Shown in pieces: positions 33,283-54,400 of a stretch of DNA of 64,000 nucleotides. Each line of letters opens with the position of its first letter. Positions within the stretch are counted from its first letter, which is position 1. Under the pieces are notes generated by a model. It was not told the origin of the DNA, searched no databases, and worked only from the letters and a program-made list of their open reading frames with translations. Made by a program: the position numbers and the translations under genes. This stretch comes from Pomacea canaliculata. Lineage: Eukaryota; Mollusca; Gastropoda; Architaenioglossa; Ampullariidae. The stretch is taken from the NCBI RefSeq assembly GCF_003073045.1, contig NC_037598.1, positions 10,950,486 to 11,014,485 on the forward strand, given 5' to 3'.

Positions 33283-35096
33283 CTACCGCGCCAGTGTTTA
33301 CCAATGTGGCTTCAGATGGCAGCACTCGCACTACAGTTTCTGAGCAGGAAGCCTCAGGATCCACCATCTTCACCTTATCTGCCACTGATGCTGACAATGA
33401 CGCTCTTACGTATAACCTCATAAATCCGGTGGAGTTCTCCATCTCCGGCCAGGTCATCAACTTGGCGACGACGCTTAATTACGAGACGACGCAGACCTAC
33501 ACGATTGTGGTCACGTGAGTACTTGTGCAAGGGTGGGTATACAGCTCCACCCTCCCCATCGCCACCTACGACACTCAGTTTTCCACTTCAACCACTTCCC
33601 TTATGCCCATGATATCCTGAGATATACGCGCCAACAAATATAACCATTGAAAGAAAGAGGTCTACAATACAGACCTGAACGCACATAGCTGAGTTCAAAC
33701 TGTCAAGGCCTCAACCAGTGGGAGAGCTTCGACCATACGTTAATTAGTACCAAAGTGACGTAACCATTTGACATTTTACTGTGCTTGGTCATCTTTGTAG
33801 GTATCTCGGGAACGGAGGGAATGTGTATTCACCCAGATTTGGGGAAATGGCCTTTTGTATTGGGGTCTTTTGCACACTAATCTTGCACCCATTAAGACCT
33901 TCTTGATGTTTACTAATGAACTCAGGACTATCTGTTATAAAATAAATTGCGCTGAAAGCTTGTGCTTATCTAAGCTGAACCTGATTTTGCATTAGAATAT
34001 AATAGATGTTAAACGCGTTTTTTCATTAATTCGTCAATTTTCTGTAGTCTGTTCATTTATTTAAGTGAGATGATTGATGATTGATGATTGATGATTGATG
34101 ATGATTGTGCAGGGTCTCAGATGGAACAGGCAACGTTGTTACAGGCACGATCACCGTTGATGTCATCAATATCAACGACGAGACACCGACTATATCGGCA
34201 ACAACCTACATCGCTAGCATCGCCGAGAACCAATCCCCAGGTACCGTGGTACCCTTCTCGCTGACCATCACCGATGCGGACGCTACCGATACGACCCTGG
34301 GGGAAAAGCTCACTTACTCGCTGGAAGGTAGATGTCCTCTGTGTGTGTGTGTGTGTTGGGGTTTTTTTTTTCTTCAATGAAAAGTGCTATTCCCTTCTTC
34401 ATCGTAGTGCTCGTACTGTTAAGATAGGAGAGCCTGGAGATGTGGTGGGATTTCGCGCTATACAATAATTGTTATAGGCACAAAATAGACACACACACAA
34501 AATCAGAGTAGCTGAACTTATCATTATTTTTTAACGGAGACCTAAATTCTTCTTTCAGGAGTAGACAGTTCATCGTTCGTGATTAACTCATTAACTGGTC
34601 AGATCACCACGGCCGTGCGTCTGGACAGGGAGGTCAAGGACACTTATGACCAGCTCGTTATCAAGGTGACGTCACTTGTTGTCTTGTGGGGTGGGATGAG
34701 TGGAGGTTCGAAACATGAAGGAAGACAGACGCCGAAACCTGAAATATCATAAGCAGACGAAAATGTGCGAAAAAAAAAGTGAACGAATGAATATATAATT
34801 GGTCACATTCCTTCATCTGCTGAAGTGGAATACAATTAATGATTTCTCTTAGTCAACACTCCCCCCCCCCCTTTTCATACTCCCCGGTGAGCTACCTTTC
34901 TTTCGAGGGTGAGGGCACGTATCACCTGACATATTTCTTTTTCATTGCTCGCCGTCGCAGGTGCAAGACGCAGCAACCCCTACACCCCACACAGCAACCG
35001 CCAGTCTGACGGTCAGCGTCTCAGACCTTAATGATGTCACACCCTCGTGCACTCCAGCAGTATACTATGTCACGGTGGCAGAGAATACTGCCCAAG
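33283..35096 (+). CDS. Cadherin exons 1-4 (EC1 to start of EC3)
   Basis: Exons 33283-33514, 34113-34327, 34559-34665, 34961-35096. Linkers: ININDETP after EC1 and DLNDVTP-SC after EC2. Introns are phase 2, 1, 0 and 1. EC3 begins with the cysteine of the SC pair and its partner lies in exon 5 (TLTCSD). The first intron has no special content apart from a TTGATGA-type repeat just before the exon 2 acceptor. Confidence 0.85.
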
Positions 35097-38000
35097 GTAG
35101 GAGCCAAGACAGGGTTGCCGAGACTGACTAAAAAGCCTGGGTGTATCAGTTTTGTAAAGACGACAGCGATGGCGATGATTTATGATATCCAAATGTTGCA
35201 GAGAAATTGTTGTATCCGAAAATTTAAAAATCTGTATGTGATTGGACTTGAAATAGTTAAGGATAACTCCTGTTTTTTTTTTTTTTTTTTTTATCAACTC
35301 ATTGTCTTACAAATGTTTCGCTGAGAATTTACAGTACCTAAATCTGCGGCAGGTGCCTCACTTACTACCCTGACATGTTCTGACACGGACCTCAGCCAGA
35401 ATGGCTTCAACACCATCGCCTACACCATCGCTAGCGGGGATCCCGGCAACGTGTTTCAGCTGTCGGCATCTCAACTGCAGACAGGCGCGACGGCTATCGA
35501 CTACGAGACTCACCAACTGTACACGCTCGTCATTCACGTCGCGGACTCCCCTACATCCGGGTCAGCGAACACTGGCACAGTCACCGTCCTTGTCACAGTA
35601 CGCACGTTAAGTAAACAGTATGTGGGATCACCGTGGCTGAAAGTGTATAAATACTTCCTAAGATGTTTATGAATAGTTGAAAGACACGAGGGCGCTGACG
35701 ATAATGTTCCATCTTCCAAATCTTTAAAAAAATTTTAACTAGTCAAAATGCGAATCCTCACGCTGTGTATTCAGAAAGCATAATGGAAGATGATAACGAA
35801 GCAGTAAAATAATGAAGATGTAAGTTATATAAAAACGCAGCTTCGCATAATGTAATCATGAGGGTTTGCAATATAAAACGACTGGGATTTGCTTTATGCA
35901 ATCATGAAATCATGGACTTTGTCCATGGTTTCATGGCATACAATACTATACCGAAAACCAGCGCACGCAAACATTTGTATATACATTCATAATCACCCCC
36001 ACCATCGCATCATTATAACGGTCACTACCACTTCACCTGTTCCAGGTGACTGGTGTGAACGAATATGCTCCCACATGGACGGCAGCTCCCGCAGACATCA
36101 GCATCGCCGAAGACTGGGCTGTAGGTGACACAATTTTCACCATCACCGCCAGCGATAACGACAGGGGAAGTGACGGTACTATTGGTTATTCCATCACCAA
36201 TATCGTAGACGGTGAGTAGCATCGACATATACCACAGATCATCAAATTTAACTTGTTTGGTTGTCCTTGAAGGTTCGGAAGCAAGCGTCGTTGACTATGG
36301 TTCTCTTCTACTATTTTATTGATATTTTCTTGATTTCTATTTTTAAATTTTTTAGTTGACACGTGACATTCTGTGTGTGTATGAAGACTTCAGATTAAGA
36401 AAAAAATGTCAATTATGGTCATTAATATTATTCAATCTTTTTAATTTATGTAATCAATCGTAATCACCAATGCTTTTCTTCAGACCAAAGCCACGTTGTT
36501 GCTGGGATATTTCGAATGGACGCCGTGTCCGGAGTCCTGTCCACCCTTCAGGCCCTAGACAGGGACAGCGGGGTGACGTCATACAGGATCACCCTCAAGG
36601 CCGAGGACAAGGGCTCGCCATCTCGAAGCGTCACCAGCAGCGTCACTATCACCATTACTGACGTCAACGACAACGACCCGGTGTTTACGTCATCCGGGTA
36701 CTCGAAGACGCTGGGGGAATCTTCAGCCACAGCTGGTGCCTCTCTTGTCGTTGTAAGTGCTGGACCTTGTGGTGAGCTGCTTAGAAGGGAGTTCGCGTAT
36801 CCCACCCTCATCCACGTCTGGTGGCCAGCCATTGAAGATGAATGCACATTATCCCACTATAAACAGTCAACGTTGCATTCTTGACATTTAAAAAAAAGTT
36901 CTTTAGTCCTATTTCCAAACTGAAAATAGGTAGTTGTCAGTCTGTTGATGGTCCATTATATAATGTTCCATTATTCATGGCATTTTGAGAGGTAAGATGA
37001 TTGCGTGATGGTTTCACAAAATTCTGTGACAGCGCACAGGGTGTGTCCAGTACTTTCACATCAGTGATGTAAACAGTGAGATTGACAGCCAATGGATCCA
37101 TGCACTTGCAGGTTGTTTGTCGGCGTAAAATAAACAATCTTGCTGAGAGAAGTTTGTTTCCCACTTTCTGTGTAGGTATCGGCGACGGACCTTGACCAGT
37201 CCCCGGTCTTCACTTACAGCGTCGGCTCTGTACTTGTTGGAAACCCTGCAGGTATCAACAGTCCTCAGTTCTCTTCTTTTGTTTTAAAGAAAATAAGTTT
37301 TTAAAAATGTAAACACACTTCTATTTGAAATGTACTAAAATGGGTCAATAATTATTTTCTTTGGGTCTTTGGATTTTTAAAGTTCGTATAACTAGAATTA
37401 TGGATGTGTGAGGGGCACTCAGAAATATTTTATAATTATCGTTCTTTCATTGATAACTTTATCAATGAATAGGCAATTTTGAAAGTTGTGATGAGTAGAT
37501 TTTTAATAGCTCGAGAGAGTGCTCCTCAAACTTTCATACAGAAGTGTATACAGCAGTTTGTCAAACGACAGGGACATTTGAGTTTGACTCTTCATCGGCG
37601 GGACTCTTCAAGCTGGCAACAGCCATCGACCTGGAAAACCACGGCTACGCCTACTCCTTGGTCCGCATTCTCGTCACGGATGGCGGCACCCCCATCAGAA
37701 CTGGCACAGCGACTGTGACGGTGTCGGTCTTCGCCACCAACGACTTCGACCCACAATTTGTTACAGTTCCTTCTGGAACCGTCACGGTAAGATGTTTGTT
37801 GTTAGATTTTTAAAAATCTTGTTCCTAACGTCGACATCTTGGTCTGTCGATAATTAATTTTTTGCTGTTGAGGGTGGTGGTGTAGGATTCAATGTTATCG
37901 CTAACAACGAAGATGTTTGTAGATTGATAAAAACTTTTTATTAACTACTGCTGATGACGATGACGACCATGATGTCCCAGCTGACACTTGGTGCATTATC

Positions 38001-41000
38001 TTTTGGTGATATAAGTGTCACAAATCCAGATATTGCAGGCTTTATGGTAAACAGAACCCAGTACTGTTTTTGGTGAAAATGCAACCTTTGCTCTAAATAT
38101 CTTGTCGTCCAGGTATCTGAAGCAGATCCTCCGGGCACCCTCGTCACTGTAGTGTCTGCAACAGACCAAGATATTGGGTCGGACGGTGTTGTCACCTTGT
38201 CTATCACAGGTGAGTACTTAATTTTGGTTATGTGCATGCTGGCCTCACTTTTTGAATGAGTACCTGAACTTTCAAAGGGTTTAGGACAAAAAAAAAAACC
38301 AAAAACACCAAGACAAGTAAGATCATTCACACCTCACTCCACAAAGACCAAAATGTTTCAGTGCTACTTTTTGATCGTCCAAAAAGATCTTGTCAGGTAT
38401 TGATGTTTAGCTCAAAATCTGTGTCGAGGTTCCGGTTCCTTTGACAAGATTCCCACTCTCTTATACCATTGCGCAGGTGGAAACACAGGCAATGCGTTTA
38501 CGATACTGTCGAATGGAGAAATTCGAACCTTGTCAACCTTGGACTACGAAGGAGGCACGATCAGCTACAACTTGGTCGTCACGGCAACGGACGGAGGCTC
38601 GACCCGTCGTTCTGCCTCCACCACCATCTCCATCGCCATCAGCAACGCCAACGACAACTCCCCTGTCTGCACCTCCACCCTGATTACAGCGACCTTACCA
38701 GAAAGCGCCACAACAACTACTGTAGTGAGTAGCTCTTCACGCTCTTGATTTTTCTGCAGTAAAGGCAGTGTGTTGTGCTCCAGAGTAAAAGAAGGGTTAC
38801 TTATCAAATAATAAGCAAGGTGTCCTCATCTCGAGTAAGAGCATAGCTGAATGAGTAGTGGGACACATCCTAGAGCCGAGGATATTGTAAGAATCTAGAG
38901 TAAGAGGATTTTTTTTAATAGAGAGGAAGAGCAACATATCGTGCTTAGCAGTACGAGTAATGTGTTCTGTTCTAAAGTTCGACAACCATTTTGTATCTTA
39001 TAACCAGAAAGATTTGCATTGTCTGCAGTAAAAGTAGCGTGTCACTTGTTATTTTTCTACAAGAAATAAAGCAATGTTTTATTACTTTTAGTCAAGCAGT
39101 TTACAGTGGATGTGGTAATTAATAACTAAATTAATGAGCAACACTAAAAACACCAACAGATATTTTCACGTTTTGATACTTATGTGAGCTAATGTAACTA
39201 GCGATTTTAGGGGGAACTCCAAAACCAAAACAATTGGAAATCCTGTTCTTACTCCTCCTCGTCGTCGTCATAATCATCATCACCTGAACCGATGAAAAAT
39301 ATTAATAAGGAGGAATTAATTTGGAGGAAGGGCACAGATCTGTGTCTTTTCCCTTGTGCAAATAATGGAACCTTTTATTATTTACTATCTCTTTCCTAAA
39401 AAAAAAAATTGCATACGATTATATTGAAAATTGAATTTCAGGTGGCAAGTCCATCTTGTTCGGATGCTGATGGCAACACACTGACTTACACCCTGGTTTC
39501 CGGTAACACGGACTCAAAGTTTGCTATCAGCAGTTCCAGTGGGCAGATAACCCTTGCCAACAGTAAGAGAAATAAATAATCCTCCTAAATTTTTATTCAT
39601 TCTCTGAGTACCTATAACTTTAATACATACCAAAAAAATAGAAACCACAATTTTTAAAAACTGCTTTAGTCACATTAAGAAACCAAACATTTTTTCAACA
39701 AAAAAAAAAAAAAAAAAAAAAAATCAGTCTGGTTTCTATTTCTGTTTGTTTATTTAAATTTTATTAGCATGTCTTTCGCATTCTCTGTCCAAGAGTAACA
39801 TTTCAGAATTAATTAAAATTTTTTGGAGTTGAATTGCAAAATTTCATTAGCCACACACATACACATATAAACAGTTCAGTTTTAATTGCACGTGCTGGCT
39901 GGACTTGCCCTTTCAGCTGTGGACTACGACTCTGGCACCAAGTCATACGTTCTCCAGGTCTCGGTGACTGACGGCACCAACGTTCAGACACTAACTGTCA
40001 ATGTCAACATCTCTCCCGTCAACGAAGCTACTCCGACCTTCACCTCGTCTCCAACGGTTACGGTCAGCGAAAGCGAGGCTGCGGGTTACGTCGTGACAAC
40101 GTACACAGCCACGGACTCTGACCTCGCGCCTCACGCCATCACACAGTACGCCATCACTGCCGGTTGGTAGCTCTTTTTTTTTTTTTTTATAATTAAAAAC
40201 TTTTTCTCATTTTCGGTAAAGGCGTGGTGTCTTACTTTGAGCAACTTCCTGACTTGTTTTTTTTCAGTAACACAGAGCGGAAGCTCGCTGTTCTCGATCG
40301 ACAGGTCGTCAGGAACCATCAGGCTGCTCGCTCCACTAGATTACGATACACTTCCGGTGGGTTCGAAGCAGTATGTGGTGACTGTCACAGCGACTGATGG
40401 CGGTGGGCTTGTGGTGAGTTCATTTTCACTTGGGTCTCTTCGTGTTGGTGGTGGTGTTGGAGAAAACAGATTACCTCTGAACTTAAAAAAAAAAACAACC
40501 GCTCAAAGCAAAACCCAGCATTACCAACAAAATGTTGTTTTTCTTTGCGCAGGGCACAGGATCGGTGACAGTGGCCGTTTCCGATGTCAACGACAACGCC
40601 CCAGTCTGCTCGCAGTCGAGCTGGTCGACCACAGTCCTCGAGTCTGTTTGTGAGTTGTAAGATGAACTAAAAATAGCGATAATGTTTAACAGCCTTTTAT
40701 GTTAGTTTTGGTTTGGATTTTCATGTTTACTGATGTTCTAACTTACACATTTTACTTTCACCACAGCAACATTCCCCTCTGTCGTCATCAATTCCCTTGG
40801 CTGTTCGGATACAGAAGACGGAACGTCCTTGACCTACACGCTGAATCAGAGCCCGGGGTCAATGTTCAGTGTTGTCAATGGAAGGATCGAACAAAATGGT
40901 GAGAACCTCATCATTCTTCCGCTATAAACACATAGCGTCTTTCCTTCAGTTGTCTGTGGTCTCTACTTTTTTTTAATTTTATTTTTCCGAGGAAGAGACA

Positions 41001-44000
41001 AAAAGAGAGAAGGTGAGAAAAAATGTTAGCGAGAGAAAATATTTCCTTCATTTTCCAATTATTACCTCAAAGAAGATAGATGAAACCAAGCTGAGCACCT
41101 AAAAATTCTGTGCATAAGCGATCCTGTACAAGTTTTTTCCTGGCTTGATATTTTATTCGTTATTCAGCCGCAGTGGACTACGAGTCGTCTCCCTTGCACG
41201 TCCTGTCGGTGGTCGTCGCCGACTCCGGCACGCCATCCCTTTCTACCACCGTCATCGTGAACATCATAGTACAGAACGTCAACGAAGGGCCACCCGTCTT
41301 CGGCGGACCATACACCGCCACCAAGGCGGAGAACGTGGCCATCGGAACCTCGGTGGCGCAGCTGGTGGCCACGGACCCGGACGGCGCCACGAACTCTTAC
41401 GGCAACCCGCAGTACTCCATCCTGTCCGGCGACCCCAACGGGCAGTTCAACATCGACTCGTCCACGGGACTGGTCACCACGAGGGCGGCGCTGGACGCCG
41501 AGACGACTGCCTCCTACATCCTGGTGGTTCAGGCTCTGGAAAAAGGCGGCGCCAACTCGGCAACAGCCACCCTAACGGTCACCGTCACCGACGTTAATGA
41601 CGTCACGCCGTCCTGCACCGTTAGCACTTTCGCCAGGACGGTCAGCGAGGCCACAGCCACAGGCTCCACCATCCTGACGCTGACCTGCACGGATGGCGAC
41701 GTCACAGCCACGACTCTGACCTACAGTCTGGCCAGCGGCGACGCGTCACTCTTCGCAATGACGTCAAATGCACTGACCCTGAGTGCGCAGCTGGATTATG
41801 ACGTCGGCACGACCAAATATGACGTCACCATCCAGGTCTCGGACGGCGTCCACTCCGCATACGTGGTCGGATCTGTGTCTGTTGGACCTGTCAACGAGTT
41901 TGACCCAGTATTCTCGCAGAGTATGTATGCATTTCAGTGTGTTTGCGTTTGTGTTGTATTCAAGTGGTTAGAGCGCTGGCGTCCGAACTGAGAGGCATGC
42001 AGGTTCGAAACCCGAGTCGTTTTACATTTAATTATACAGATGCCGTGGTGTTACATGTTTTCCAGCTGCTACTAATGTTAGGTTAACCAACCACCGAAAT
42101 GTCACCCTCAACCTTAATCGACATGTAAGTTTTTTGTGTGGTTTGCAGCAACCTACACGACCTCCGTCAGCGAGAGCTTCTCGGTGGGAGGCACGGTAAT
42201 AACGGTGACAGCCACGGACGGCGACTCCAGCAGCACGGCGGACGGCGTGGTGACCTACGGCTTCGTCTCCTCGTCTTCGACATTCGCCATCGTCTCCTCG
42301 TCGGGAGCCATCGTCCTGTCTTCGTCGCTGGACCGGGAGCTGGTGGCGACGTACACCTTGCTGGTAACCGCCCACGACGTCGCCACAACCGTCACGGCGA
42401 CTGTCAGCATCATTGTCAACGACGTCAACGACAACCCCCCAGTGTTTGCTTCGGCGCTGTACACGTAAGCAAATATCTAAAAAAAAATGTCACCCATTTC
42501 ATGTCATTTTTTCCTTCGCTGCTTATCTTCAATTTTTTTTTTTTCTTATTTGGGCATTTTGTTGAATATTTTTATTTTTCCTTTTATGTGATTCCTTTTT
42601 CTTTCACTGACTAATATCTTTTCCCTACTTTAATTTCTTTATCTTTAAATATGCTCTGCTCCTCATAAAAGAGTTATGTTTTTCTTTTCTCGATTGATAA
42701 TATCTCTTCAGTCTAAGACTCTTATAAAGACTCACGACTAACCACCACACAAAAAAGAAAGGATGAAATTTATGAATATACTGACCAACAAAGAGGAAGA
42801 ATATTAAAGAAATTTGCTATTTTAAAAAATTGTAATATTGAAAAAAATTGAAATATGCTATGCTAGCAGCAGCTGTAAACATCTTTCTCAGAGCCGCAGT
42901 CTCCGAGACGGCTTCTTCACCAGCGACAGTCGTGACCGTGTCGGCCAGCGATGCGGACGATCCTGCAACCAACAACAACGGCGTCGTCGTCTATTCCATC
43001 ACGGGTGAGCAACTTTCACTCTCCCCGGGTAGTTAAAGCGTGTGTCAATACTCAGAAAAAATGCATCTCTTGACACTAACTTATTCGCAATTTCAGCTGG
43101 GAACACCAACGGCCACTTCACCATCGGCTCCAGCACCGGGGTCATCACAACCACCACGCAGCTCAACGCGGCCTCGCTCAGCAGCTACATTCTGACCGTG
43201 ACAGCCAAGGACCGCAACGGAGCCAGCGGTGCTCTCAGCGCCACGTGTCTGGTGACGGTGACCGTGACCGCGGTGAACCAGTACGACCCCGTGTTTACGT
43301 CATCAACTTACAGCTACACTGTAGCAGAGAACACGGCAGTGGGCACGGAACTCGTGCAGGTGAGAGACGAGGACGGGGAGTGAGGGAAGAAATGAGAGGC
43401 CAGTATGATGGGTGAGAGGCAGGTGACAGGGGAGATAAAGGTTTACAGAGGAGAGGTGGGTTGACGTTGACAAGTCATCGGGCCGTGAGGAAGGAGTGGT
43501 GGACAAAATAGGGAAAAGGGAGTAGAGAACGGAACCAAGTTTCTACTTTATTACTGAAGATTTACTTATGTAACCTTCACATTGATACATTCATTGTTTT
43601 CTGACACGACTCTCAAGGTGTCGGCAACGGATGCAGACAGCGGAAGTGGCGGAGTAGTGACGTACTCCATGACATCACACACCAAGTTTCTGCTTTCCGC
43701 GGACGGCTGGATCTCCGTCAAAGCCGCCCTCGACCACGAAACCACGCCCACCGCTTACACCTTCGACGTTATCGCCTACGACCAGGGCAGCCCTCAGCGT
43801 AGCGCCACGGCCACCGTCAGTATCACCATTGGCGACGTCAACGACAATACGGCCCTATGCACACTGAGTGTCGTCTCGGTCCAGAAGCGGGAGGACTACA
43901 CGGGTACGATCACGACCTTGACCTGCACGGATGCTGATGCCGGCAGCAACGCAGCATTGACCTACACCATCCATAGTGTGGACGGGGTTGCAGGTGGGGG

Positions 44001-45424
44001 CGCTGGCAGCTTTTCCGTTAGCAGCGCGGGGGTGGTCAGCGTGTCGCAGTTGAACTACGAGGTTGCGACTTCACACGAGGTCGTGGTGGTGGTGGCAGAC
44101 GGGGGATCCCCGCCGCGATCGACATCGGTGCTGGTGGTGGTGACGGTGTCGGACGTGAACGAATTCGACCCGGCATTCTCCTCGACGCCTTTCTCTGCCA
44201 ACATTGCTGAAAACGAGGCGCTCGGCGCCACCGTCCTTAGCGTTACCGCCTCCGACAGCGATGGTTCCGACACCATGACGTACTCCCTGTCAAGTACAAC
44301 GTACCTGGAGGTGAGCGCCCTCACCGGTGACATCACGTTAAAGGCGCGGCTAGATTACGAAACTACGCATTCTTACTCTGTTGACGTCTGCGCCACCGAT
44401 TCCAACACCGTGGATGCGCGGCGAAGTGTCTGCGTGGCCATCAGCATCACCGTGACGGACGCCAACGACAACGACCCCATCTTTGCCCCAAGCGTGTACG
44501 TCGCCAGCGTCGACGAGAACACCAGCGCCGGCACGACGGTGGTGACCGTAACAGCCACCGACCGAGACGTCCTGGCAGCTGGGGGAACTGTTTCGTACTC
44601 CATCGCCTCGGGTAACACGGGAAGCGTCTTCCGGGTGGATGCCGCGGCAGGTCACGTCGTCATCGACGATAACACCGGCCTGGACTACGAAGCAGTGCGG
44701 GTGTTCAATCTGGTCGTCGCAGCAAACGACGGAGGAGGCCGGTCTGCGCAGGCCGTGGTCACCATCACCGTCAACCCTCGCAACGAAGCCACGCCCACTT
44801 TCTCGCCGGCTTCGTCGACGATATCAATTGCCGAGAACGCAGCTGTGGGGTTTTCCGTGGCCACCATCACAGCGACAGACGCCGATAGTGGTCCGGACGG
44901 CCAACTAACCTACAGCATCACCGCTGGGGCTTCGGGCAAGTTCGCCATCGAGTCGGCGTCAGGGAAAGTGACTCTAGTGGCCAGCCTCGACAGGGAGACA
45001 ACCCAGTCGTACGTCCTGCGGATCGAAGCTGTCGACGGCGGCACCACCAACCCCAGCGCCAAGACCGGCACCTACTCACTCACCATCGACGTCACGGACG
45101 TGAATGACGTCACTCCGGCCTGTACTAATGCGTACTATTCCGCGGCCGTTCCCGAAGACTCCGCGGTGGGCGCTGCCGTCACAACCCTGACCTGCTCCGA
45201 TGGGGATCTTGACCCGTCGAACCTCAACAACGCCCTGACGTACACCATCACGGGGGGCAACTCTGCAGGACACTTTGCAGTCGGCGCCTCGGGAGCCGTG
45301 ACGGTGTCAGCAGCCTCGTTAGACCGAGAGACGACATCGTCGTACATACTGACGATAGAGGTTGCCGACAGGGCTACTAGTGGCAAGCTGACCACAACAG
45401 TCACGGTTAATGTGGATATAACAG

Positions 45425-45468
<44 letters not shown>

Positions 45469-48400
45469 CGACGACAACGTCGATGATGATGATGATGATC
45501 ACTGTAGTTTAATTAGAATAAATGGATAGAAAAAAATGAGAAGACCAACTCCTCAACATGAACGCTCTGTTTTGTTATTTATTTATATTTTTATTTGTAT
45601 TTATAGTTTTTTACATTTATATTTTTTATATTTGTATTTTATTTATATTTGTTATTTAAGGATTCCATTAGTATTTTAGTTTTATGTTGGTTTAAGATTT
45701 CGGTTTAGGATTATATAGTTTCTTTCGGTGAAGTTCGTTTCCTTCTGTTAAGATGTCAACGACAACCGGCCAGTATTTACATCCAGCCCCTACACACTAG
45801 CAGTTGCTGAAAACCGCCCTGTGGGCTACACGGTGGGCACTGTGTCTGCGACTGACCAGGATGCTGGCTCCAACGGTACCTAGCTCTTACAAACGGTTTT
45901 TTTCCCGCAGTAGATAAGTTTTAAAATCATTGACTGCAATTAAAGTGAGGCAGCACTAGTAAAGGTCAGGACCCTACATCAGCGGAACATGTCATGTGAT
46001 GTATTTGATGTATTACCGTGTATTTGTTGTATTTGTTGTGTTGTCTCTGTTTAATTTTTAATTTCAACATCCTATGTTAAACTGATTTCGATTTTTCCGG
46101 AACAACATTGCAGCCGCCATTACCTACAGTCTTGTTTCTGCATCCATTGCTGGAAAATTTGCTGTCGACGCTACTACTGGTGTTGTCACCGTCGCTGGTG
46201 CCTTGGACTACGAGACGACGACGAGCTATACTCTGGTGGTCAGCGCTACAGACCGAGGAGCCGTGCCCCTGTCCGCCACCACCACCGTCTCCATCTCCGT
46301 GTCAGACGTCAACGACAACGGCCCCATATGCGTGGCGTCGGTGTACACCGCCACCTTGCCCGAGAACGCCGACCCTGCCACGGCCGTAGTCGTCACGGTG
46401 TCCTGTCCTGATGCAGACACACCTGTGAGATGCCCTCTTCTTTTTTCCATCGTTCTTTCATCATCTCTCCGTTCATCTGTTTATTTAACCACGTTTGCAT
46501 GTAAACAACGGTACAGAAAACACATCTCGTCACTCCCTTTATGTACTCTCTTTTAACATCGTTTTCATTATATTTCGTCTTTGTTGTCTTTATGTCACAT
46601 CTCGCTATTCCCTCAAAGTTTGTTTTTCTCTTCCCTTCTTTTTTTTACAAATCCACTGAAAGCATCCATATTCCTTTCTTTTTATTCTTTTATGCTTATT
46701 GATATTTGTGGTCCAGTGATGGGGAGCCTTTTTTTAAGCCAATAGCCATTTGAATTTTTATAAGATCATTCGCGAGTATATAAAAATTATGAAATTTAAA
46801 ATTTTATTTGGTTAAGTCGTAGTTTTGCCACGTATGTTAACACTTTTGTCTACCTGACACAGACTGTACTCTGAGTCACTGTCTGTGCCTTCAGTCTTTC
46901 TCCAGACCCGACCAGGTGCTGCTTGCAATTTCTATTTCATTGCCGGAGCTAATGTTATCTCAAAACACAATTGAGACACACAAACACAGAGAAGATTTTT
47001 CGAGGGTAATTTCTGTTTCAGGTTGTGACCTACTCCCTGACAGACACAAAATTCGCCGTGAACCCCTCGACGGGCGTCGTGTCTTTGCTCTCGGCCCTCG
47101 ACTGCGAGACTGCGCAGGCGCACACACTCACCGTCACAGCGTCAGACGGCACCTACACGGCCACCACGACCGTCCAAGTAAGGATTGTTGTATTCTCAAT
47201 GCTCCTTTGCTATAATAATGAAATACTGTGAGCAGTTATTTTGACATTGAATTTGCTATTTCGCGCTGTAATTGTCATGATCATAAATAATAATAGTAAA
47301 TGTCATAGACACAGTTATGGTTCCTTTCCTTATCCCTACCCATGATTTAGCACGAGAGATCATTCATAAGCTTCACAAACTTACCCTGGCTTCCGTAAAG
47401 CCGGGTTACAGCGAGGAGCATCAATAATTTGCTTTACGTGAAAGGTTACGGTGACGGACATCAACGAATTTGACCCAGCATTCGCCCCCACCACACCCTA
47501 CACAGCCTCCGTGTCCGAAGACTCCCCCGCGGGCTACACCGTGCAGGACGTGGACGCCAGCGATGCGGACGTTACTGACAACGTCTTGACATACAGCATC
47601 ACCAGTGGAAACGCAGCCGGCAAGTTCACCATCGACTCCGCCACGGGTGTCATCCAGGTGCGTTGCCAGGTTTTTAATCTGGCATGTTCGAGGGATGAAT
47701 GCAGGGATGGACACGATGGATGTAGAGCTTAAGACCCAAGATTTTGCTGCAAACATTATTTATTTATAGTTTGTTTAGTAAACAAATTAAATTGTAAAGG
47801 TACCCGTAGTTGGATCTTCGTGGGATGACATGTAAAATGTCGATCCCAGTCCTCTGCTAGTGGCTCCTGACTTTTCCTAATAAATCACGTATCTATTAAT
47901 TGGTGAACATGGGAGAAAACTCCATTTAAAGCCTGGGAAAAGCATCATAACGGAGATCTTCTCTATCGAAATGGAACCAGAAACCACCAGCCTAAGGACC
48001 CTCCCACTAATTTCTCTTCACCTCCCAGCCAAAACCGTGGGACTGTTGACCACACCCCGTTTATCCAAGGTGTTACGCAGGGTGGTCTTGTAAACTTATC
48101 CGACTTATCTGCCCATTGTGTTCCTGCGGTAGGTTCTGGGATCGCTGGATCGCGAGACCACCTCATCGTATTCCCTGACCCTGAAAGTGGCTGATGGCAG
48201 CGGAGCAGGCTCTCGCAGCAGCACCACCTCCATCGTCATCACCATCACTGATGTCAACGACAACGACCCGGTGTGCAGTCCTGCTTCCTACGTCGCCTCC
48301 GTCAACGAAGACGTCGCGGTCTCCACCACCGTCGTGGCGCTGACCTGTTCGGATGCCGATGCTGGGGTCACTCTGGCGTACACCCTTCTGACTTCCGGAA

Positions 48401-51400
48401 ACACCGGCACGGCCTTCGCCATCGGCGCCTCGTCGGGGGCGATCACCGTGGCGACCGCACTGGACTACGAGACCCTGAAGGCCTACGCGCTGCGGGTGGA
48501 GGTCAGCGACCAGTCCACCCCGTCTGCACGAACGACCACCGTTCCTGTCAGTGTCGCCGTCCAACCCACGAACGAGTTTTCCCCCACCTTCCCAGCCTCG
48601 GGCTATGGCAACACGGACGTGTCAGAATCCACGTCTGTAGGAACCGTCATCCTCACTGTCACAGCCACGGATGGTGATGTAGGGCTACTGCAAGGTATAA
48701 TCTGTCCTTTGTGGTAACAACTACTATTGCCAAAAATTGTTTTGTCCAGATGTTTTTCTTGTTTTAAAGATTTATTTGTAACCATCTAAAGTAGAGCTCT
48801 ACGCCAGCGAATTCATTCAGCTAAAAGAAAATATACATCTCCGGGTTTGTGCTTGGCATTATATCTCAAATTATCTCTGGTATTTAAAGCTAATTTTTTT
48901 CATAACACAAGATCGATGTTGTTTTCCAGGAACTGTTCGCTACAGCATAATTTCTGGGAACTCTTTGGGTCACTTTGCCATTGACTCAGCCTCCGGTGGT
49001 ATCAAGGTGGCAAAAGCTCTGGATCGCGAAACCACTGCGTCCTACTCACTCTCAGTGAGAAAAGTGTTGTTAAAAATATTGTTCATTTGGCATAGACAGT
49101 ACCAACTAGCATATATATACAATGTAACGTTTTGTAGACAATGTTATTAAATGTAGACAATAAAACCTGGCATAATACATCAACTGTTTGACCTCCCATG
49201 ATCACTGATAAAGCCGTAATGATCAGATGTCGCATTCCAAATGTTTATGATGACATAAACAGCACAATGTCCAAAATATGCTTCTCTCCTCCCTTCATCT
49301 CATCTTTCTCTCTTTAGCCGATCAAGCAGATTTGAGGGAATAAAGTCTTCCCTTCATTGCAAAAAGGTTCGTTTCCAAGCTCAGAACATGCTTTTTTTTT
49401 TCAAAGATCAAAGCTGAAGATGAATTCACGGGGTCACCAACCTTAAGATCAGGGGTGACTACCGTCGGGATCACCATCTTGGACGTCAACGACAACTACC
49501 CCGTGTTCAACCCTACCCTGTACTCGGTCACAGTGCTGGAGACGGCCCCCACTGGAGGAACCGTTGCCACGGTTACAGTCAGCGATGACGACGCAGGTAG
49601 CCTTGTGTTAAGTGCGTGTGTGTGTGAGAGAGAAAGATACCACAACTGATACAAAATATTCTTTCTTTTAAAGTTATTACATTGAACAATCCATCTTCGG
49701 TTCAGCTACCTACAGGAATTAATTTTAAAACTGTTTAAATGAAGACGAAACAATTACAACTGTGCCATGTATGAAAGCTGGGTTGACTCTGTCTCAGGAC
49801 CTTTGATGAATATGCATTACTGTGATAAAACATGTGGAGGATATTCCGTACAGGTGGTTACTTGCTGTTTAGACCTCATGATCTGTTGATCATTCAGGCA
49901 CAAACACCGCCCTCACTGTTACGATCGTGTCCGGAAACACCGGAAATGCATTTTCGATCAGCGGAAGTCACGTCATACTGAATGCCAACCTGGACTACGA
50001 GACGACTACATCCTACGAGCTTATTCTGCGGGCAGCGGACCAGGGTACCCCGACACTGACAGCCCAGGTGAGGGCATCAGTCACGTGTCCCAGTGAATGA
50101 ACTGTCCTTGATGTTAGTTTGTTCGTTGGTTTGCTCCTTTGTCCTGTTATGTGTTTTTTCGTCTGCTTTTTTTTTTTTTTTGCCTTTGTTAGTTTTTCTG
50201 TTCCTTCCATCATTTCTTTCTTTCCTTTCTTTCTTAGCTCCTTATTACATTCTTTCGTTCATTCGTTTGAGTCGGTGCACGGGAAAGTCTGGTGGTTGTC
50301 TCAATCCAGGGTGTGGTTGCAGGCGATGGTCGTAGTCACAGTAGGCCCGGTAAACGAACAGGCCCCGCTCCTGACCGACACCTCAGTCACCCTCAGCATC
50401 TCCGAAGCAACGCCCATCGGCACTCTCATCTACACCGCCAGCGCCTCCGACAGCGACACAGGCGGCAACAACGACGGCACAGTCACTTATTCTATCATTT
50501 CAGGGGACACCACTCCCAACTCTTTCTACATCGGGTCTACTAACGGGAAGGTTCTGGTGCTGTCCACACTGGACTACGACACCCATCCTCAGGTGAGAGT
50601 TCGTATGGAGACCACAGTGACGTCACACACCTTGTGTGTGCGTGTGTGTGTGTGAGAGAGAGAGAAGGCTTCTGTTATACCTGGCTGTTCACAAGATAGT
50701 CACGTGTCTGCAGGCTTACACCTTGACTGTTGAAGCGAGGGATGGTGGAGGTCTGACAAGCACAGCACAGCTGACGATCACCCTTCTGGATGAAAACGAC
50801 AACACCCCGCAGTTCACCCGCAATACATACACCTCGACCCTCAACGAGAACGTCAGTTTGGGTACAACAGTCTTAACTGTAACAGCCACAGACCTGGACT
50901 CGGGTACCAACGGTCAGGTATCCTACTCCATTACAGGCAAGTCTTACTTGAGTAAAGGCAGACACTCTTCTTTCGAAAAGTAGATAAAGTTGATCATCGA
51001 ATTTTCTTTCTGCTTATTTTTTAAATTAATTTTTTTTCTTCGTATGGGTGGAAATTAATTTGGTCTGAAGGCACGATGTTCATAAATCCTGTCTACCCCA
51101 ACTTTCCAGGGTTCAACGGTCCAAGCTCCTTCACTATAGACTCCACGACAGGCATAATAACCACCAGTGGAATCATCGACTACGAGAGCCTTCATGTCAG
51201 GTACCTCGTCGTCAAAGCTGTCGACGCCGGCGCCACACCTCTCTCCTCTACCTGTCTCGTGCGCATCACCATCGTGGACCTCAACGACAACTCGCCGGTG
51301 GTAGTTCCTGACGACTTCACGGTCACCGTGGCGGAGGATGCAACGATCGGAACTCGGGTTGCAGCTGTTGCTGCCACAGACGCCGACTCCAGCGCCAACA

Positions 51401-54400
51401 ACAACAACGTGGTGGTGTTCGGACTCAGCAGCACCCACTTCCAGGTGAACCCCAATACAGGGGACATCACCACGGTGGCTGCTCTCGACAGGGAGACTAC
51501 TCCAAGGTTAACCAGTGTTTAGTTTTCGAAGAGATATTAAACATTTCTTTGTATAAATATTAAGGTTGGTTCTAGTACTTATATTTTTTAAGATAAAAGT
51601 AGCTGCTCCTGCCCCCAACCCCCCCCCCCCCACACACACACACAAAAGTAAATTTCTAGAGCATAAGAAAATTTAGCAAAGTAGTGGAATCGAAAATGTT
51701 CTTATTTATCCTTCTTCCATTCTGTCAGCTTCATTCTGCTGGTGACTGCCACAGACCAGGGCACCGACCCGCACCAAAACACCGTTACATCGACAGTTAC
51801 AGTTTCGCTGGTTGACGTCAACGACAACACCCCTGTCATCAGCGGCACCTACGACCGGACAGTGTCCGAGGACACAGCTGTCAACACCATCGTCGTCACG
51901 GTCCTCGCCACTGACGCCGATGCGGGAGATAACGCCAGGTAAGTGGCTGGTATCAGGCTGTGAGATGTGGTGACCGGAACCACTTGCACAGATAATGTTA
52001 CAGCCCTAGTTCCATTTTGAAAGAGGATATGTTTTTATCTTTAGTAACATTTTGTGTTTTCTGTGCCACAAGGTTGACCTACACTATCACCAGCGGCAAC
52101 ACCAACAGCGACTTCAAGATGATTTCTTCCACGGGTATGCTACAGATAGCGAAACCGCTCGATCGTGAAACCACATCTCTGTATCACCTGAAAATCACGG
52201 TTAGCGACAACTCACCAACCGCTGCACGATCGTCGTCCACGACGGTCACCCTTACCATCAGCGACGTCAACGACAACGACCCGATCTTCTCTGGGCTGCC
52301 GTATTCTTTCTCCGTGGCCGAGAACTCGAACACCGGCGTGACCATCGGGCGCCTGACAGCCACCGACGCAGACGAGGGCCAGAACGCCAACCTCCTCTTC
52401 TCCTTCGTTACTTTCTGGACAGGAGGCAGCTCCTACTTCTCGCTGAACGCAGCCTACGGGAGGATCACGACCGCAGTCAGCACACTGGACCGCGAGACGC
52501 AGGCCAGCTACCTCGTCCGGTGCCGGGTCTATGACCAGGGTAGTCCCCAACGTTTCGCCGACGTCAACGTCAGCATTACCATCACGGACGTCAACGACAA
52601 CCCGCCGGTCATCGCTGCAGGCAGTTACAACGTTTCCGTGGCGGAGAACTCGGCTGTGATGACTTCTGTCCTTACCATCTCGGCCACTGATGCTGACATC
52701 GGTGTAAATGCTGACATCACCTACTCCATCGACACCAGCACAACGAGGGACTTCAGGGCGAGTAAATACCTTCAGGTAGGTTTCAGCAAATGATGTGGTT
52801 AAGATAAACTACCAGAGTGAATGTAAGTGGTCCATCGTGCAGGCAGCTGAAACCTTCTTCGCTTTTATCTCCTTTGATAAATCAGTTTCCCTTCTGGAAA
52901 GCTGCTACGTGGATTTTACCAACAACAAAAAAATGGGCGAAGAAGAGGTAAACATTCTTGTGCAGAATTGAACCACTTAAATTAGAACTCGGTGATATTT
53001 TGTTTATGTATTTTCTGCCCTTAGATCAACGGTACCAGTGGAGAAATATCAGTCAAGAGTAACATCGACTACGAGACCGACCACAGCTTTGTTTTTGTTG
53101 TCGTGGCTGCTGACGGTGGTTCCCCGACTTTTTCCGACACCACCACAGTCACCGTTAACGTGGTCGACAAAAACGACAACGCCCCGGTGTTTGCATCGAC
53201 TTTCATCAACACCGAGGTGGCCTACGCAGGTCAGTGCAGCAGCGCCATTGCCACCTTGACCTGCACCGATGCCGACTCCGGGGTCAACGCGCAGACTCTC
53301 TGCTACTTCTCCTCCAACGGCTACGGCTCGCTGTTCTCTATCGACGGTACTGCGTGTAAGTTATCAGAGACGAAAGGAAAGGAAACAGCATTCATGATAA
53401 GGGTTCAGTTGCTGCTTTCTTTCATTCTTTCCTTCTTTCTCTTCTTTTTTTTTTTTATTTGCCTCTTCTTCTGTTTCTTCTTCTCTTCGTCTTCCAATCA
53501 GAGAAAGATCGAGGTACGTTGTTCGGAAGATCTGTTGCAAGATACTTACCTACTCAATCAAACCAAATCATTTCTCGTGATTAAAGAAGAAAAAAACTTT
53601 TATAAAACAGATTCGCAGACATGATTACACTGAGGAATACTGCAAAGGAAAATTAATTACTGGAAAATTTCACAAAATTTACTGAAGCTTTAAGGCATGT
53701 CAGTAGTATATATACAAGAATGGTGATACATAATACTGACATACATATTCACAGCCTTTCAAACAGAATAAAAGCTAATTTATATGATTTTGAAAATAAT
53801 AAATATACATAACCCAGATGTGAAATAATGTCAGGAGCTTAGTTTTACTTAGTCACTAGAAAACATTTTTGTACACTACTATGTCTTTAAGGTCAATTAC
53901 TTTTGCAAATGACAAAAACAATATGGCTTTTTTTTATTATTTATATATATATACCAGATCCGACAGTTGTGAAAACTCTCAGCAATCGCTTTTGTTTTCT
54001 TTATCTCCATATTTCTGCTGGTCACGTGGTATGGGTTGGGGACTGCACCTTACTGTCATGTCTCATCCAATTACGCCTAAGAGCCTCTGGAAGTTTATCT
54101 AGAATACTCTCTAGAAAAAATGTGTTTCATTAGGTTCTGTGGAGCTAAGCTCCATCGCCACCTCCAACACCCGCTATCTGCTGGAGGTACAGTGTCGAGA
54201 CTCAGGATCCCCCCTACAGATCGCGGCGACGCATGCCACCGTGAGAGTCGACACCTTCATTCCAGATAATGTTGCCATCAGGTTGGAATCAACCCTATCT
54301 TTCTTTTTTCTTTCTTATTATTTATTTTTTCATATTTCTTTTGTTTGACCCAAACTTTTTTTTTACCTTTTTTTCTAGTTTTTTTTTTCTTTCCCCCTGT

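Follow-up and report, generated by a model that had tools for sequence, protein, structure and literature searches.

The 64,000-nucleotide stretch of Pomacea canaliculata contig NC_037598.1 analyzed here (positions 10,950,486 to 11,014,485, hereafter the window) carries a gene for a giant cadherin, most of whose 32 extracellular cadherin (EC) repeats alternate between two classes, A and B. At the level of sequence, the two classes, their conservation, their even register, and the loss of calcium ligands at the joints leading from A to B are established. We consider it somewhat probable that the protein is a giant single-pass cadherin from an old animal family built of EC pairs, in which stiff two-EC rods are joined by calcium-weakened, rather than calcium-free, joints. 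A broader proposal, possible but tentative, is that these proteins form an undescribed animal-wide cadherin class whose quantum of growth was an A/B pair predating the sponge/bilaterian split, giving stiff rods separated at regular intervals by soft joints (tuned by calcium and flanked by disulfides), lengths that change in even steps, and a conserved register to the membrane.

The gene model, built with our own repeat profile and a splice-site dynamic program, places the gene on the + strand at 33.28 to 57.4 kb, with all 32 ECs in 36 coding exon pieces between 33283 and 54249 (introns of 92 to 778 bases). An initial annotation made from the sequence alone had begun the array too late; the EC1 exon is at 33283, and the array continues to EC32 (54249) in a gene reaching ~57.4 kb. 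Its repeat numbering is the same as that of the gene model, since the first linker visible to it belongs to EC1. Matches to PF00028 fall within the window exons as tandem EC repeats, and the XEX, DRE, DXNDN, DXD, and XDX calcium motifs of cadherins are present and were tabulated per junction. The array aligns with a Babylonia areolata protein, its orthologue (P0001, 31 PF00028 stretches), at 60% identity over 100% of the query, and with a Littorina protein at 57% over 70%, making gastropod proteins its nearest relatives. One EC8 exon edge differed between two model runs, and Babylonia favors the first.

Linkers between repeats, tabulated by coordinate, alternate throughout linkers 2 to 25 (35024 to 50367). 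Even linkers 2 to 24 carry the Asn-Asp (ND) pair in 12 of 12 cases, while the 12 odd linkers from 3 to 25 carry NE in nine, NQ in one (linker 13), and ND in two (linkers 5 and 19). The first Asp of DXNDN is gone from 9/12 odd linkers (replaced by Pro in five, Ala in two, Gly in one, and Asn in one) and retained in 11/12 even linkers, so that departures from D-x-N-D at either Asp affect 11/12 odd versus 1/12 even linkers; Babylonia and chiton each have 10 odd and 1 even linkers of this kind. Linkers 26 to 31 all have ND (6/6). The initial annotation had described exactly this alternation, had remarked that many odd linkers lack the first Asp, and had called everything after linker 25 canonical, all of which the gene model bears out. 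That all 10 non-D linkers (NE or NQ) are odd has a hypergeometric probability of 3.4e-5 within linkers 2 to 25 and 1.8e-4 over all 31 linkers, values to be doubled if either parity is allowed. Other cadherin open reading frames in the same 440-Mb genome of 24 contigs (8 stretches from 5 places) showed neither alternation nor the Cys pairs described below.

Odd-numbered ECs, which follow an even linker, were designated A and the others B. A Cys pair, consisting of one Cys at the first position of the EC (column 0) and another two residues before DXD (column 24), occurs in 8/16 odd ECs and in no even EC; EC32 has only the second Cys. The initial annotation made no mention of this pair. The eight ECs, all A type and on the + strand, are EC3 (35048 to 36075, end linker GVNEYAP), EC7 (38668 to 40038, PVNEATP), EC9 (40607 to 41298, NVNEGPP), EC11 (41614 to 41910, PVNEFDP), EC15 (43858 to 44175, DVNEFDP, with Lys in place of the XEX Glu), EC19 (45121 to 45775, DVNDNRP), EC21 (46329 to 47480, DINEFDP), and EC23 (48274 to 48588, PTNEFSP), which lies 9 ECs ahead of the last. 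In four species pooled, A repeats favor DYE and B repeats DRE. When linker and Cys columns were removed, same-parity resemblance within EC2 to EC26 persisted (z of 5.25; best match of the same parity for 24/25 repeats). Under the same removal, no same-parity resemblance was seen in EC26 to EC32, the membrane-proximal repeats of which EC26 to EC31 (50371 to 53189) carry canonical linkers only, or in four Fat-type proteins, and similarity parity was also absent from annelid P0031 (best matches 14/24, P = 0.47).

Homologues were drawn from the best 120 of 717, 7 of 7, and best 120 of 350 matches and parsed with the window's own repeat profile, 120 and then 87 more. The eight ECs that carry Cys pairs in the window also carry them in Babylonia. 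Across the 79 parsed sequences with at least 4 pairs, window included, Cys-pair ECs lie in the majority parity in 499/510 cases, although about half of these sequences are near relatives of one sponge-type protein and hence not independent. Register to the membrane is also kept. Forty-two sequences have both an RIDTF-like motif closing the array and at least 3 Cys pairs. Among them, the distance from a Cys pair to the last EC is odd for 300/320 pairs; 34 sequences have every pair at an odd distance, and 28 have their last pair exactly 9 ECs before the end. The window's eight Cys-pair ECs (8/8 odd-numbered) lie 29 to 9 from the last EC, and it shares the distance set 25, 23, 21, 17, 13, 11, 9 with Babylonia, mussel P0021, annelid P0163, and hemichordate P0107, from which clams and amphioxus differ in single places. 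Among the same best 120 of 717, 7 of 7, and best 120 of 350 matches, no vertebrate or arthropod protein carried the A/B code, and no cnidarian names were noticed among the matches listed.

To gauge depth across animals, log-odds were derived from mollusc repeats (160 A, 147 B) and used to score other proteins without linker and Cys columns. The area under the curve (AUC) separating A from B was 1.00 in four amphioxus proteins, 0.99 in a hemichordate protein, and 1.00 and 0.95 in two annelid proteins. Values were 0.82 in the sponge Amphimedon, 0.87 in P0161 (probably Sycon, as we presume from its identifier prefix), and 0.84, 0.68, and 0.66 in three further proteins called sponge type because one of that group (P0036) shows 38% identity along its length to an Amphimedon protein. 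Nine controls gave 0.51 to 0.70 with the better of two orientations taken, a range that includes the two lowest sponge-type values. In Amphimedon, the column 24 Cys is present in 24 ECs of one parity and 0 of the other, with its partner at column 77 in 19 and at column 0 in 5, and the end of the protein beyond the ECs looks different. The sponge and bilaterian arrays are likely, though not proved, to be homologous. No A/B code was found in a parsed Monosiga cadherin or in P0086, a cadherin named as Sycon ciliatum, although P0161 has it. In two 74-EC proteins from ENA (P0159 and P0160), loss of the first linker Asp is confined almost entirely to one parity (0 versus 13 and 1 versus 11) and the Cys code is absent, and the linker half of the code may therefore be able to occur without the Cys half. 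About thirty giant cadherins of ~6,250 amino acids among P0164 to P0206, mostly from ENA, lack the A/B code.

A repeat tree and a search for orthologues had been named in the initial annotation as checks on its proposal that the array expanded by duplication of a two-repeat unit. IQ-TREE was run on 134 ECs from the window, Babylonia, Haliotis, chiton, and amphioxus after removal of diagnostic columns (row Hal_26B left out). Odd and even repeats do not intermingle within well-supported clades: all 51 such clades containing at least two A/B rows are parity pure, 10 of them joining different EC numbers, and the alternation is kept in most orthologues. Across gastropods and chiton, ECs mostly group by position; because they pair in this way in Babylonia, Haliotis, and chiton, the array's pairs are older than the split of those lineages. 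The notion of duplication in twos therefore stands as far as the evolutionary unit is concerned, with repeat comparisons supporting the EC pair as the likely unit of duplication, but the window array is ancient and not freshly expanded. Amphioxus ECs fall into six-EC blocks (8/14/20, 10/16/22, and so on). With only 95 columns and a bootstrap that had not settled, many deeper forks lack resolution; A and B each fall outside a single clade (8 and 14 label changes). A tree of the window alone has no branch at the support threshold, although its A repeats need 5 label changes versus a shuffled mean of 9.6 (0/500 shuffles as low).

Similarity between repeats as a function of their spacing points the same way. 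The best lag was even in 33/33 family proteins versus 8/19 controls, lists that were hand-chosen from the 208 parsed sequences, the family list having been drawn up after the Cys pattern was seen. A control, the cadherin-23-like giant P0204 of Babylonia, has a strong 5-EC higher-order repeat with best lag 5, and odd-sized blocks are therefore possible in cadherins. The window's own even-lag excess is small (1.61 versus 1.55). Intron positions are only suggestive of pair duplication, lying near column 41 in EC2, 4, 6, and 8 and near columns 14 to 22 in EC3, 5, 7, and 9, a pattern that later ECs break. In scallops P0010, P0026, and P0029, a 4-EC linker block (GTNE/NVND/AEND/DVND) recurs several times, with very similar copies in P0010, which suggests that two pairs were recently amplified or homogenized there. 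Chance or an artifact of the gene model as the source of the alternation was rejected on the hypergeometric odds, the parity statistics, the lags, and the independently database-annotated homologues.

The two kinds of joint differ in calcium ligands. In the window, B-to-A joints retain nearly all nine ligand residues, while A-to-B joints lose the first DXNDN Asp in 9/12 and the second in 10/12 cases; the XEX, DRE, N, DXD, and top-Asp positions of these odd joints show only 0 to 3 losses of 12 each. In amphioxus and hemichordate, A-to-B joints keep the first Asp in 6% and the second in 16%, and all nine ligands are present in 0/51 A-to-B versus 39/50 B-to-A joints. The contrast is strongest in Amphimedon and P0161, with 4.8 of 9 ligands kept at A-to-B versus 7.6 at B-to-A joints. 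In bilaterians, losses are mostly limited to the two DXNDN Asp residues. It is plausible that calcium binding differs at the odd joints. We take D101 of CDH23 to be the first Asp of DXNDN. This residue is reported to bind calcium at site 2, and the D101G change to lower calcium affinity and to weaken resistance to unfolding at 30 µM calcium (PMC6717114, PMC6746995). The PCDH19 change D341E at DXNDN, in the residue after N340, is among the disease mutations listed in PMC5115871, and PMC8691648 describes PCDH24 EC2-3 as a straight two-calcium linker that arose via other residue losses. Solved structures of E- and C-cadherin carry DVNEAP at the EC3-EC4 linker. Loss of CDH23 D101 reduces affinity and mechanical strength, yet DVNE occurs in E- and C-cadherin, and weakened rather than calcium-free snail joints are therefore to be expected.

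Joint shape was assessed with AlphaFold models of EC15-19 and EC17-18 (linker PRNE), which contain no calcium and cover few junctions (predicted local distance difference test scores of 89.7 and 89.9; predicted template modeling scores of 0.50 and 0.67). Both are extended and superpose on calcium-bound rods, with no kink at the junctions covered. EC16-19 fit Fat4 EC1-4 at 4.1 Å over 392 residues and PCDH1 EC1-4 at 3.7 Å over 386. The whole five-EC model fits a four-EC DN-cadherin chain at 36 Å, a value that alone says little, as curved calcium-bound classical cadherins also fit it poorly (17 to 25 Å). The PRNE pair EC17-18 taken alone is at least 2.6 Å from the solved chains shown, while the best match of EC18-19 is 1.6 Å. 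Over eight solved two-EC entries, EC17-18 fit at 3.7 to 5.2 Å versus 1.6 to 3.7 Å for EC18-19, worse in 8/8, in a comparison biased by the aligner's freedom to pick the best of four pairs in the longer model. Judged from these models, any difference in inter-EC angle at the PRNE joint is small at most.

A mechanism consistent with these patterns can be proposed. Each B-type EC ends in a canonical three-calcium D-x-N-D-N linker, and the A-type EC that follows often contains a candidate disulfide between its N-terminal end and the position immediately preceding the DXD calcium loop. The B-A pair may behave as a stiff rod with full calcium sites, often disulfide pinned. The A-type EC in turn ends in a linker mostly without the first Asp and with Glu, rarely Gln, for the second, and the A-to-B joint would have a weakened calcium site, be extended at rest, and soften first under tension or low calcium. 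At ~4.5 nm per EC, a published length, 32 ECs could form a tether of ~140 nm with evenly spaced compliant joints. Arrays have apparently been lengthened and shortened by even numbers of ECs, so that the A/B register was preserved. Disulfide formation, calcium affinities, softness, and the tether function are all things we infer.

Several observations weigh against this proposal. Gastropod and chiton A-to-B joints keep most of their ligands (7.3 of 9 versus 8.7), and calcium binding in E- and C-cadherin tolerates Glu in place of the second Asp. Calcium in snail body fluid is millimolar, so a weakened site may stay occupied. The code also has exceptions, since odd linker 19 is fully canonical (the same position reads DVND in Babylonia and DEND in chiton), even linker 6 has Asn as its first Asp, and 4/12 A-type ECs between EC3 and EC25 lack the Cys pair (EC5, 13, 17, and 25). 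In 8/42 sequences, some Cys pairs are off the odd distance, and the register slips in P0011, P0015, P0027, P0030, P0031, P0037, P0055, P0098, and P0162, although such slips could perhaps stem from gene models.

Weakened joints were weighed against three other explanations. The A and B faces might instead serve lateral packing in a cis or trans assembly whose register is two ECs, the linkers setting twist rather than softness, an explanation we hold to be unlikely. It would account for A/B differences spread over many non-calcium columns (32, 65, 4, 91, 60, 77, and others), for A and B remaining distinguishable in other phyla once linker and Cys columns are removed, and for the hint of a different inter-EC angle in the poorer fit of EC17-18 than EC18-19 to all 8 entries, but that angle comparison carries the aligner bias already described, and the strongest shared A/B columns cluster around the joint (24, 0, 98, 101, 102). 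Whole-pair duplication is visible in 4-EC units (lag 4 strongest in scallop P0010 and Haliotis P0071) and 6-EC units (lag 6 strongest in clams, amphioxus P0024, and annelid P0158), as would be expected if the array descended from a duplicated pair and its A/B differences lingered without functional meaning. That the differences are such a relic seems improbable, given that molluscs, annelids, amphioxus, hemichordates, and sponge-type proteins all confine the column 24 Cys and the loss of the first Asp to one class, and that in Amphimedon even lags exceed odd ones as far as lag 12 without decaying, a pattern in keeping with selection on class rather than recent copying.

The initial annotation had further suggested that every second junction may bend. 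In its extreme form, with every second junction calcium free and the ectodomain a zigzag of two-repeat rods, this idea appears very improbable for the snail protein. Two Asp ligands are indeed lost at odd joints, and PMC5120219 describes calcium-free linkers that bend in PCDH15 EC9-10 and DN-cadherin; a zigzag may even hold in sponge-type proteins, where many ligands are lost at A-to-B joints. In the window, however, the remaining ligands of the odd joints are mostly kept, and the superpositions of EC16-19 on PCDH1 and Fat4 EC1-4 (3.7 and 4.1 Å over ~390 residues) argue against a zigzag; the bending expected at every second junction is absent from the two models, built without calcium, at the few junctions they cover.

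Downstream of the array, exons were placed by tblastn with the Babylonia orthologue. Two exons at 54134 to 54675 (intron from ~54288 to 54493) encode the end of EC32 (RVDTFIP) and the initial portion of a membrane-proximal domain, as far as GRRRLL; the second part of this domain lies at 54948 to 55097. The end of the domain and a likely transmembrane segment read by eye (TVCCVLALALLVLLIVLCL) follow at 55307 to 55480; the hydrophobic segment is also visible by eye in Babylonia P0001. Cytoplasmic tail exons at 56003 to 57396 (matches at 56003 to 56068, 56791 to 56943, and 57319 to 57396) end in TGRIYEYNTRTNERRWLEPPPPYQQN, and the tail of the predicted protein, read from these orthologue-matched exons, terminates in ERRWLEPPPPYQQN. 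All these features are on the + strand. A signal-peptide exon was not found in the 64-kb window by tblastn with P0001, neither strand of positions 1 to 33000, upstream of EC1, held anything that convincingly resembled cadherin coding sequence, and no window match to Rfam reached the gathering threshold.

GRRRLL (54658 to 54675) looks like a furin-type cleavage site. By eye, relatives from Babylonia, Haliotis, chiton, amphioxus, annelid, and hemichordate have an RRR-LL-like motif at the corresponding position, and it is missing from clams P0002, P0004, and P0009, scallop P0010, mussel P0021, and Aplysia P0020. The tail motif FDGRALDP...TGRIYEYNTRTNERRWLEPPPPY (56890 to 57396) looks like the latter half of a WW domain with a PPxY-like end after it, and a similar motif occurs in scallop P0010, chiton P0019, and amphioxus P0027; a Pfam search with P0001 and with one piece of the window yielded no WW domain. 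A second gene ~15 Mb away on the same contig (C9, 26119762 to 26136826, at 26.12 to 26.14 Mb) has 16 ECs with the same A/B code. Its EC10-16 best match window EC26-32 in order and its EC3 matches EC3, while its other eight ECs are out of order and its EC1 and EC5 best match the opposite parity, a further point at odds with a strictly kept register. In six-frame translation, its membrane-proximal match (26137676 to 26137801) spans one TGA.

Giant cadherins are usually viewed as strings of single near-equivalent ECs, whereas this array is a repeating pair with two junction types, conserved over very deep time in proteins labeled Fat4-like or cadherin-23-like. This suggests a separate animal cadherin family hidden by automatic names, and A-B versus B-A pairs are ready short constructs for asking how cadherin joints set stiffness. 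Among the titles and abstract openings searched, mostly of non-subscription literature, no description of alternating, paired, or two-repeat cadherin arrays or of this family was found, which is no proof that print lacks one; the uncharacterized echinoderm cadherin UECDH (PMC10734073) was not compared.

Known cadherins resemble the snail protein in part. Like cadherin-23 (Cr-2 group), it has a long array and a membrane-adjacent domain, and several homologues are database-named cadherin-23-like. However, cadherin-23 has 27 ECs rather than 32 in A/B pairs, and while its membrane-adjacent domain has a known fold, the corresponding region of P0001 had no credible match in Pfam or to the sequence of a solved structure (PDB). 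An echinoderm survey places CDH23 orthologues in deuterostomes and not in protostomes (PMC10734073). Fat4 and Fat-like proteins have a similar EC count, and many homologues are auto-named protocadherin Fat 4-like, but Fat-type proteins lack two-repeat parity, and P0001, which the window exons match on both sides of the transmembrane segment, had no EGF or laminin-G match (Pfam, E ≤ 1). Fat matches carry accessions that we take to be those of EGF and laminin-G domains. Noncanonical linkers within a calcium-bound array are also found in cadherins whose linkers are partial or calcium free (Drosophila N-cadherin EC2-3, PCDH15 EC9-10, PCDH24 EC2-3, and Fat/Dachsous); as far as described, these are single linkers, whereas in the snail gene every second of 24 is affected, together with a Cys-pair code, mainly through loss of the two DXNDN Asp residues and with no modeled kink at the junctions covered, which sets it apart from the calcium-free class. 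Disulfides of protocadherin EC1 (the E-F loop staple and the A-F bond of PCDH15 and CDHR5) likewise sit close to the N-terminal strand or to a calcium linker and are thought to stiffen the tip. Those bonds are described for EC1 only, whereas the candidate pair of the snail family, at columns 0 and 24 (columns 24 and 77 in sponge-type proteins), recurs in every second EC class along the array.

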